Source: Myxococcales bacterium (lineage in GTDB: Bacteria; Myxococcota_A; Polyangia; Polyangiales; Houyiibacteriaceae). Taken from it: a stretch of DNA of 53,348 nucleotides. The position numbers and the translations under genes are program-made. The stretch is from NCBI GenBank assembly GCA_019637115.1, contig JAHBWH010000037.1:1-53348 (forward strand), given 5' to 3'. Under the pieces are notes generated by a model. It saw only the letters and a list, made by a program, of their open reading frames with translations, made no database searches and was not told the origin of the DNA. Of the stretch, positions 12,196-15,494 are shown one piece after another; the first letter of the stretch is position 1, and every line of letters starts with the position of its first letter.

Positions 12196-14382
12196 TCAGA
12201 GACAACCTGCGCGGAAGACGTCCGCCCTGCCGTCCCCGTCGAAGTCGCCGAACGCGAGCTCGCGCAGGGGCTCGCTCGCGACGCGCAGGGTGTCCCACCG
12301 CGAGCGGCCTGCCCACGAGACGCGCCAGCGCGTCCCGTCGGTGGTGATCACGTCCGCGCGCCCGTCGCCGTCGAGATCGGCGAACGCGAGCGCGTCGACG
12401 CGGTGACTCGAGGCGTTGAGCGTCATCCAGCTCCCGCTCGCGCTGCGCGACAGCCGCCACTCGCTCCCCGTCGCCGAGAAGACATCGGTCCGTCCGTCGC
12501 CGTCGAAGTCCGCGAACGCGAGCTGCGCGACGGACGCGCTCGAGTTGTTCACGCGCTGCCACGCGCCCGTGCCCCCCGACGACACGAACCACCCGCCGGC
12601 CTCCGACTTGAAGACGTCGGTCCGGCCATCACCGTCGAAGTCGCCGAAGCCGAGCTCCGAGACGCGCTCGGTCGCCGCGCGCAGCCGCGTCCACGAGCCG
12701 CTGCCGCCGCGCGAGTAGGACCACTCCGTCCCGGTCGCTCGAAAGACGTCGGTGCGACCGTCACCGTCGAAGTCCGCGAGCACGAGGCCCACGAGCCCAT
12801 GGCTCGAGGTGTTCAGCGTCGCCCACGAGCCCGTCCCCGCCGAGAGCCAATGCCACCGCTCGCCGTCGGCGCGGAAGACGTCCGTCCGCCCGTCGCCGTC
12901 GAAGTCGCCGAAGGCGAGCGACGAGAGCCCCACGCTGGAGGCCGCGCGGAGCTGGCGGGGGCCCGCGCCGCCCGCGTGCGTGCAGAACCGCACCGTCTCG
13001 CAGTCGCGCGCGGCGCGACCGTAGCGGTTCGACGACGCGCCCGAGGGTGAGCGATCCACGTAGAAGTTGCCGAAGAAGTGACGCTGCAACGCCGCCGTCG
13101 TCGCCGAGGTCCGCGCGAGGCAGTTGTCGTAGAGCCACGAGCCCTCGAAGGGCCGACCGCGCACGACGAGCGCGTAGTGGTCGCTCGGGAGCACCGTGTT
13201 GCCGTGGACCAAGATGGTGTGCCCGGCGTAGGGGCTGCCGTTGTTGGTGTTCTCGTTGTGACCGTGGACGTCGAAGACGTGCCCGTTCGCGTGCGGGAGG
13301 ACGAGGTTGTTCCGCGCGGTGTAGCTGGTCGCGGGCTCGCCGCTCGCCGCCACCGCGTGCCGGTTGTAGTCGAAGACGTTCCACTCGATGAGCGCGAAGG
13401 CGGGGGCCTCGTCGCGCCCGAAGACGACGCCGTAGCCGAGCCCCTGTCGCTGGTTGTGGTGGATGTCGTTGTGGTGGATGTGGTTGCCGACCGAGTCGTT
13501 GATCGAGATGGCCGCCGAGCTGAAGCCCGCGATCTCGCAGTTGTCGATCTCCGTGCGGTGACGCCTTCGGATGAGGATCCCCGAGGTCTTCGCGGCGCAG
13601 TCGCGGCAGTTGACGCCCCCGGTCCGATCCTCGAGCGGGCACGAGCCCGGATACTCGGGCGGGCACTGCCAAGGGTCCGCGCCCAGGATGCGCAGCCCCG
13701 TGATGCGCGCGTCGTCGCCGCAGACGCTCATCATCGTCCGCGCGACGCGCTCGCTCGTGAAGAGCAGCGCCCCCGCGGAGCCTCGGCGGCCGCGCCCGCT
13801 CGCCAGCGTCACCCCCGCGGGCACACAAGGAGACGAGCCGCGCAGGTCGATCTCGACGTCATCGTCGACGTAGACGACGTGCCCCGGCTCGGCGGCAGCG
13901 AGCGCCGCGTCGAGCTCGGCGCGAGTCCGGACGCGCGTCGTACAGGGCCCATCGGGGGGCACGAGGTCCGGATAGCCGACCCCGCCGCCGACCCGCCAGC
14001 TGCTCGACGCGCTGGGAGAGGACCGATCTCCACGCACCACGCCGCAGGGCACCGGCCCCGCGTCCACGCTGGCGTCCGGAGGGTCGACGCCCGCGTCGTC
14101 CACGTTGTCGACGTCCGCGTCGTCGGCGGCCGCGTCGTCGCGCGCTGGCGCGTCGTCGGACGGCGCGTCGGCGCGAGGCGCTCCGTCGCGTGACACTGCC
14201 GCGTCCCCGCCCGGCTCGGCGCTCGCGCTGCACGCCAGAAGACCCCACGCGAGCGCGGCGGCGAGGGAGGGGACCTGTCGAGAGAGGCCCCGTCGAGAGA
14301 GGCCCCGTCGAGAGGGGCCCCGTCGAGAGGGGCCCCGTCGAGAGAGGTCCTGTCGAGAGAGAAGGCGTTCGTGCGGCTCCAC
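12196..14382 (-). CDS. Beta-helix and FG-GAP/VCBS-repeat surface lipoprotein
   Basis: About 728 residues from GTG 14382; the start is uncertain and a TTG at 14502 also fits. An Arg/Ser-rich N-region encoded by 15-bp tandem repeats precedes SLAAALAWGLLAC (lipobox). An Asp/Ala-rich linker follows. The middle (about residues 190-440) has right-handed beta-helix character: VVYVDDDVEIDLRG, then IHHNDIHHNQ, YTARNNLV and similar turns, as in polysaccharide-binding or lyase proteins. The C-terminal 260 residues are seven FG-GAP repeats of the form LAFGDFDGDGRTDVF, each with a DxDxDG Ca-binding loop. It is probably a cell-surface lipoprotein. No catalytic residues could be assigned. Confidence 0.88.
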   Translation of the reverse strand: MEPHERLLSRQDLSRRGPSRRGPSRRGLSRRGLSRQVPSLAAALAWGLLACSASAEPGGDAAVSRDGAPRADAPSDDAPARDDAAADDADVDNVDDAGVDPPDASVDAGPVPCGVVRGDRSSPSASSSWRVGGGVGYPDLVPPDGPCTTRVRTRAELDAALAAAEPGHVVYVDDDVEIDLRGSSPCVPAGVTLASGRGRRGSAGALLFTSERVARTMMSVCGDDARITGLRILGADPWQCPPEYPGSCPLEDRTGGVNCRDCAAKTSGILIRRRHRTEIDNCEIAGFSSAAISINDSVGNHIHHNDIHHNQRQGLGYGVVFGRDEAPAFALIEWNVFDYNRHAVAASGEPATSYTARNNLVLPHANGHVFDVHGHNENTNNGSPYAGHTILVHGNTVLPSDHYALVVRGRPFEGSWLYDNCLARTSATTAALQRHFFGNFYVDRSPSGASSNRYGRAARDCETVRFCTHAGGAGPRQLRAASSVGLSSLAFGDFDGDGRTDVFRADGERWHWLSAGTGSWATLNTSSHGLVGLVLADFDGDGRTDVFRATGTEWSYSRGGSGSWTRLRAATERVSELGFGDFDGDGRTDVFKSEAGGWFVSSGGTGAWQRVNNSSASVAQLAFADFDGDGRTDVFSATGSEWRLSRSASGSWMTLNASSHRVDALAFADLDGDGRADVITTDGTRWRVSWAGRSRWDTLRVASEPLRELAFGDFDGDGRADVFRAGCL
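14272..14361. repeat. Six 15-bp tandem repeats
   Basis: Six contiguous 15-bp units with consensus GCCCCGTCGAGAGAG occupy 14272-14286, 14287-14301, 14302-14316, 14317-14331, 14332-14346 and 14347-14361. The outer units diverge at the first bases (gacct, gtcct). On the minus strand they encode the five-residue unit S-R-R-G-P/L directly before the hydrophobic core of the lipoprotein signal peptide. Copy-number change would stay in frame and alter only the length of the basic N-region. Confidence 0.9.
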
Positions 14383-14520
14383 AGGTGAACGCCGTTTGCA
14401 AACCGTGGACCACGGACGCGCGGGTGTGGTTGATCCGGAGTTTGGCCAGTTCCGCGGGTTCGCCGCCGGATTCGCGCCGTCCTGTCGCGCCGGGGCGTCC
14501 AAGGCCTGGACTCGACCCGC

Positions 14521-14889: not shown

Positions 14890-14996
14890 TTGGTCCCTCC
14901 GAACGGTCGCGAACGGTAGCGCACGCCACGACACGACCACGACGCATGACGCGCCTCCACGTACGCACATCGCGTCATCGGGGTAGGCTGCGCGCG

Positions 14997-15494
14997 ATGA
15001 CCGTCTCCACCGCTGCCGCCTTCGCCCGCTCGGTCGTCGCGGCGGGGCATCCCCTTCGACTCTGGGTCGACGGTCGCCGTCGCGACGTGCTCGTGCCCGC
15101 CGGCGTTCGCGCCGACCACGGGCTCAACCTCTTCCTCGACGTGGCGCCGACCAACTCAGCGGCCGTCGACGTTCAAGACGAAGGGCTCGCGGCAGACCTC
15201 TCGTTCAGTGGCCACGCATTTCGCGTGTGGGTCCCGTGGATCGCCGTGCAGCTCTTGGTCGACCTCGCGACGGGTGCGGAGACGGCGTTCCCCGAGCACG
15301 CGCCGCCGCCCGAGCTCCCAGCGGACCTCGCGACCGATCCGTGGTCGATGTGCAGCTTCTGCGGGATGGACCCTCGCGACCGCGCGGTGGTGGTCGGAGG
15401 GGTCGAGGCCCGCATCTGCGACGTGTGCGTCGCGGCGGCCGCCGAGGTCGTGGCCGCCCAGCGCGCGTCCTCGGCCCCCGATCGCGAAACCTGA
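14997..15494 (+). CDS. SspB-like domain fused to a ClpX-type zinc-binding domain
   Basis: 165 residues from ATG 14997 (TAGGCT lies 7 nt upstream; ATG 14946 is an alternative). Residues 18-100 align by eye with the SspB fold: HPLRLWVD, VLVPAGV, NLFLDVAP, GLAADLSFSG, FRVWVPWIAV and FPE match the order and spacing of the E. coli ClpXP adaptor SspB. A Pro-rich linker leads to residues 117-152, a C4 zinc finger CSFCG-x17-CDVC (Cys 119, 122, 141, 144). Its 18-residue gap between Cys pairs equals that of the ClpX N-terminal domain. SspB delivers ssrA-tagged proteins to ClpXP by docking on exactly this ClpX domain. The fused form is therefore likely a ClpX-interacting adaptor or decoy; that part is inference. 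Confidence 0.82.
   Translation: MTVSTAAAFARSVVAAGHPLRLWVDGRRRDVLVPAGVRADHGLNLFLDVAPTNSAAVDVQDEGLAADLSFSGHAFRVWVPWIAVQLLVDLATGAETAFPEHAPPPELPADLATDPWSMCSFCGMDPRDRAVVVGGVEARICDVCVAAAAEVVAAQRASSAPDRET

Follow-up and report, generated by a model that had tools for sequence, protein, structure and literature searches.

Introduction

The protease adaptor SspB holds on to tagged proteins, and ClpX is a protease motor that receives adaptors at its zinc finger. Docking takes place when the flexible tail of the adaptor meets the zinc-domain dimer of ClpX. Known SspB adaptors (PF04386) include those of E. coli and H. influenzae and Caulobacter SspB-alpha; the ClpX zinc domain (PF06689) is represented by structures 1ovx and 2ds5–2ds8.

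In E. coli, a tail peptide binds the ClpX zinc domain at tens of nM (PMC12373786). Residues F16 and I46 of the zinc domain (ClpX numbering here excludes the first methionine, so that F16 is the F of CSFC) are required for trigger-factor stimulation, and the region around them binds trigger factor, SspB and RssB (PMC7804408). Fingers like the ClpX zinc domain, dimeric and of treble-clef fold, are not confined to ClpX: one is found in the anti-sigma factor CsfB/Gin of B. subtilis. CsfB is about 20% identical to ClpX, has no SspB domain and binds sigma factors, which shows that a dimeric treble clef of this kind can have a function away from ClpX (PMC5890618).

Here we describe P0001, a gene that joins an SspB domain to a finger of the ClpX type. 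No protein of this composition was found in the literature searched, which agrees with the sequence-only reading that no adaptor of such architecture has been characterised. Both domains are of known kinds; their combination and the exchange of tail for finger appear to be new. The fusion is a rare design and may represent a novel means of controlling protein degradation.

Results and Discussion

P0001 is a fusion of two domains

The window, the whole stretch of DNA analysed (53,348 nucleotides), belongs to a genome of 8.9 Mb in 434 contigs that is 98% complete. Its order is deduced to be Polyangiales (Myxococcota), because the SspB protein L060 of a Sandaracinaceae MAG (of the SspB2 clade, see below) matches L084 of G175, a genome of the same order as this one, both in sequence and in profile score. 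P0001 is read in one frame of 165 amino acids with no internal stop, at the coordinates at which it had been proposed from the letters. Its parts are as follows.

14997..15494, plus strand: whole gene P0001; relatives L010 and L012 align from about this start
14997..15308, plus strand: SspB domain, residues 1–104; leave-one-out profile of its closest clade (SspB2, see below) and structural model
15309..15347, plus strand: linker, residues 105–117, predicted to be disordered (pLDDT below 50 from 110 to 121)
15348..15461, plus strand: ClpX-type C4 zinc domain, residues 118–155; Pfam zf-C4_ClpX above cut-off, model on 2ds8
15462..15491, plus strand: C-terminal end, residues 156–165 (ASSAPDRET), with neither an LRVVK nor a VIDGG tail

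Translation could also begin at an in-frame ATG upstream, at 14946, but this is less likely. The G+C content by codon position (0.77/0.54/0.86) is compatible with coding, but since an antisense frame has a similar third-position G+C, it is homology that decides the coding status of P0001. Chance or artefact as the origin of the gene can be dismissed, given the independent profiles, the two predicted folds and the intact frame. On the strength of sequence profiles and predicted folds, we identify P0001 as a naturally occurring protein in which an SspB adaptor domain is fused to a zinc-binding domain of the ClpX type, as the sequence-only reading had proposed.

The N-terminal half has the SspB fold

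The Pfam SspB family scores P0001 at 21.5 bits (E = 2.6e-4), below the cut-off of 27, and Pfam alone would thus not settle its identity. The deciding evidence comes from a profile of SspB2 relatives from which P0001 itself was left out and against which it scores 53 bits (E = 1.9e-14 for 20,000 sequences), and from the predicted structure. The final predictions were made in two separate runs, so that alignments of SspB relatives and of ClpX fingers were not mixed in one block. The model has a pLDDT of 81–94 across the SspB half and of 78 overall. Its best 12 PDB matches are all SspB, with Z-scores of 11.1–13.6 over 99–102 residues, and are led by 1ou8, SspB with a bound degradation tag (Z = 13.6). 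The next match, a designed small barrel, has a Z-score of 8.1; a family missing from such lists is not thereby shown to be absent. Foldseek agrees with SspB (E about 1e-6).

The SspB-like half claimed from the sequence thus extends over residues 1–104 and retains the N-terminal helix, and P0001 is closest to those SspB structures that hold a degradation tag. It differs from members of PF04386 in its sub-threshold Pfam score, in the missing ClpX-binding tail and in the added zinc domain. P0001 also departs from three residues that are conserved in both SspB clades, carrying S54 (for P), V57 (for L) and V77 (for C). In the literature on point mutants of the ssrA groove of SspB, none was found with both mutations.

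The C-terminal finger is of the ClpX type

Cysteines C119, C122, C141 and C144 form a CX2CX18CX2C motif whose two inner cysteines enclose exactly 18 residues, the ClpX gap noted in the earlier reading. Pfam zf-C4_ClpX (PF06689) matches residues 119–152 at 29.5 bits, above the cut-off of 27 (E = 7e-7), and a phmmer search of PDB sequences places the ClpX zinc domain on top (1ovx, E = 0.0027). With ClpX fingers as the alignment, AlphaFold predicts a hairpin followed by a long helix (mean pLDDT 77). ClpX entries occupy ranks 1–5 among the structure matches of this model, which superposes with 1.5 Å over 41 residues (Z = 5.2) on 2ds8, the E. coli ClpX zinc domain in complex with the SspB tail.

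P0001 thus shares with ClpX the cysteine spacing and the treble-clef fold, and of the two pocket residues, F16 is kept as F121 and I46 is replaced by V151. Unlike that of ClpX, its finger is C-terminal and is not joined to an AAA+ domain, the protein ending 21 residues after C144. The finger also differs from ClpX at V24 (R129), L42 (A147), K19 (M124) and Y34 (R139), of which V24 and L42 are well-conserved positions. Identity is 28–30% to the ClpX fingers of E. coli and of the same genome, whereas certain accessory ones of the order reach 40–47%, a comparison that is a weak argument because the sequences are short. As the finger is nearer to some of these accessory fingers than to those of ClpX, docking on ClpX is not a given; "ClpX-type" here names a fold, and docking is a hypothesis.

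Accessory ClpX-type fingers of the order occur with helical repeats (L047, L048, L246), with HTH-like ends (L051, L054), alone in short proteins (L055, L056) and in pairs (L057, L058).

The finger could instead serve Polyangiales as a generic module for dimerisation or binding with no tie to ClpX, and P0001 be an SspB-fold peptide binder with an output other than ClpXP. The variety of accessory architectures and their higher identity to the P0001 finger are in line with this, and CsfB provides a precedent. However, the choice of SspB as partner, apparently more than once, together with the loss of just that tail which such a finger binds, would be hard to explain without ClpXP, and we regard this alternative as fairly unlikely.

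P0001 lacks the ClpX-docking tail

Nearly all complete SspB proteins sampled carry an LRVVK-like or VIDGG tail at their end. P0001 ends in ASSAPDRET; the ClpX-docking tail is absent and a zinc domain of the ClpX type stands in its place. The same genome encodes an ordinary SspB with the C-terminus PPYLRVVK (contig C399), an ordinary ClpX with an ordinary finger (contig C146) and a tmRNA whose tag ends in ANDNALALAA.

P0001 is related to a divergent SspB clade

Our search for SspB covered 377 genomes from the phylum and 183 from the order, and the species genomes were scanned in addition. The scan of species-genome contigs gave no match with P0001 alone and 22 named loci with an alignment of SspB2, a divergent clade of Polyangia that we name here. 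SspB2 is found in Nannocystis, Enhygromyxa, Plesiocystis, a Sandaracinaceae MAG and relatives, and its members end in RRxAF(R/K)VIDGG; the ordinary SspBs of the phylum (SspB1) mostly have LRVVK-like tails. The nearest sequence relatives of the N-terminal half of P0001 are SspB2 proteins (38% identity to L010), and a phylogeny of 88 SspB domains places P0001, on a long branch, as the sister of this clade (support 99/97). SspB2 proteins have the RRxAFRVIDGG end and no finger, whereas P0001 has the finger and no such end.

In the Sandaracinaceae-like genomes G174, G175 and G180–G182, SspB2 is the only SspB match at the threshold used. Ordinary SspB may thus have been replaced there, with SspB2 standing in for it.

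The RRxAF(R/K)VIDGG end of SspB2 (L010–L018, L059–L080) is perhaps a variant ClpX-binding tail. Some Enhygromyxa and Plesiocystis genomes have two copies of SspB2. L099 (G125:C580:8878-9168), a second SspB in its genome, has neither docking tail nor finger.

A second fusion in another family

A genome of another family of the same order, G073, encodes a similar protein (L090, L111), in which an SspB domain is followed by a short linker and ClpX-type finger, again with no tail. Unlike P0001, it has two fingers (zf-C4_ClpX matches two stretches with 50.2 bits; SspB scores 20.6 bits), and the tree assigns its SspB half to the ordinary type, SspB1. Another SspB is present in G073, on contig C174.

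A profile of both fusions found no third protein spanning both domains in 317 genomes of the class, and a draw of 377 genomes from the phylum gave no further fusion of SspB and finger. Since both fusions are rows of the search profile, their own scores prove nothing and only the lack of others is informative. Placing P0001 and L090 together, as a single origin would require, costs 9.5 units of lnL and is not rejected (AU p = 0.29). We nevertheless favour separate origins, because the two fusions fall with SspB2 and SspB1, respectively, in the tree and differ in finger number.

The three ClpX-type finger matches of G073 are the two of the fusion and one in the finger-repeat protein L246. No ClpX finger is among the finger matches listed for this genome, so its ClpX would be either broken across contigs or fingerless.

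A possible role in ClpXP regulation

Our leading proposal, to which we give slightly less than an even chance, is that P0001 is a tail-less SspB-like regulator that acts on ClpXP and is tied to it through the finger. Degrons at protein C-termini would be the ligands of the SspB half, perhaps another set than that of the resident SspB, given the departures from both clades at residues 54, 57 and 77. The finger would tie P0001 to the delivery route in one of two ways. It could pair with the ClpX zinc domain, making P0001 a delivery adaptor that needs no tail, or P0001 could form a zinc-domain dimer that grips the resident SspB by its LRVVK tail and acts as an anti-adaptor, which is physically reasonable given the binding of the E. 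coli tail peptide at tens of nM (PMC12373786). We lean slightly towards delivery over sequestration.

In favour of the regulator proposal, the two domains were identified independently; a resident SspB with an LRVVK tail, an ordinary ClpX and tmRNA are available; the tail is missing from P0001 and from a second, probably separate, fusion of another family; and the pocket residues F16 and I46 appear as F121 and V151. Against it count the low identity of the finger to that of ClpX, including the changes of V24 to R129 and L42 to A147, its greater similarity to accessory fingers not known to be linked to ClpX, and a locus with no Clp genes nearby whose gene looks accessory, being missing at the same place in a sister species (see below). 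The mechanisms offered by the sequence-only reading, insertion into ClpX zinc-domain dimers or action as a decoy, likewise draw on the loss of the tail and on the second tail-less fusion, and are weakened by the other ClpX-type finger proteins of the order, which have no evident link to ClpX and some of which the P0001 finger resembles more.

P0001 might also be an anti-adaptor only, its finger-mediated dimer capturing the resident SspB by its LRVVK tail and keeping it off ClpX while the SspB half holds back tagged substrate. The ligand tail is indeed present on the resident SspB, the pocket residues are retained as F121 and V151, and the predicted beta-hairpin of the finger is as in 2ds8, where the SspB tail is bound. 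The changes at the V24, L42 and Y34 positions nevertheless argue against tail binding of this kind, and the accessory nature of the gene favours neither direction; we consider an exclusively antagonistic role unlikely.

A broader proposal builds on the regulator reading and is more doubtful, though possible: P0001 and the G073 protein would define a new class of ClpXP regulators, adaptors with the docking domain of their receptor, in which tail-less SspBs either pair with the zinc domain of ClpX or hold ordinary SspB by its tail, and which would have arisen more than once in Polyangia. The exchange of tail for zinc domain would show whether zinc domains can be traded between the ClpX ring and proteins outside it or, alternatively, whether adaptors are checked by decoy zinc domains. 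P0001 is possibly also a ready part for targeted-degradation tools.

The locus and its sister-species counterpart

P0001 is flanked by a divergent gene of lipoprotein-like type and by a convergent one whose 997-residue product looks exported. The neighbourhood comprises lipoprotein-like, exported and methyltransferase genes, with no Clp or tmRNA genes among them, and a promoter and terminator scan gave no match, a result that carries no information. Carriage by a phage, plasmid or virus was rejected, as there was no match in the phage, plasmid and viral-contig collections searched, to which this result is confined. In the sister species G007 (89% complete), the convergent neighbour is conserved (72%) and a different gene occupies the place of P0001, which therefore looks accessory; no SspB match was found in that genome.

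A gene in decay or out of use, derived from a copy of SspB2 to which a finger was added by chance and on which selection is weak, would account for the absence of P0001 from the sister species and from the corresponding place there, for its long branch and for the altered clade-conserved residues. The intact frame, the four cysteines at exact spacing and the confidently predicted folds of both halves speak against decay, which we regard as very improbable.

On the minus strand of the window, 12196–14502 encodes an exported protein with a right-handed beta helix and FG-GAP repeats, and near-identical short repeats of the SRRG type form a run near its start.
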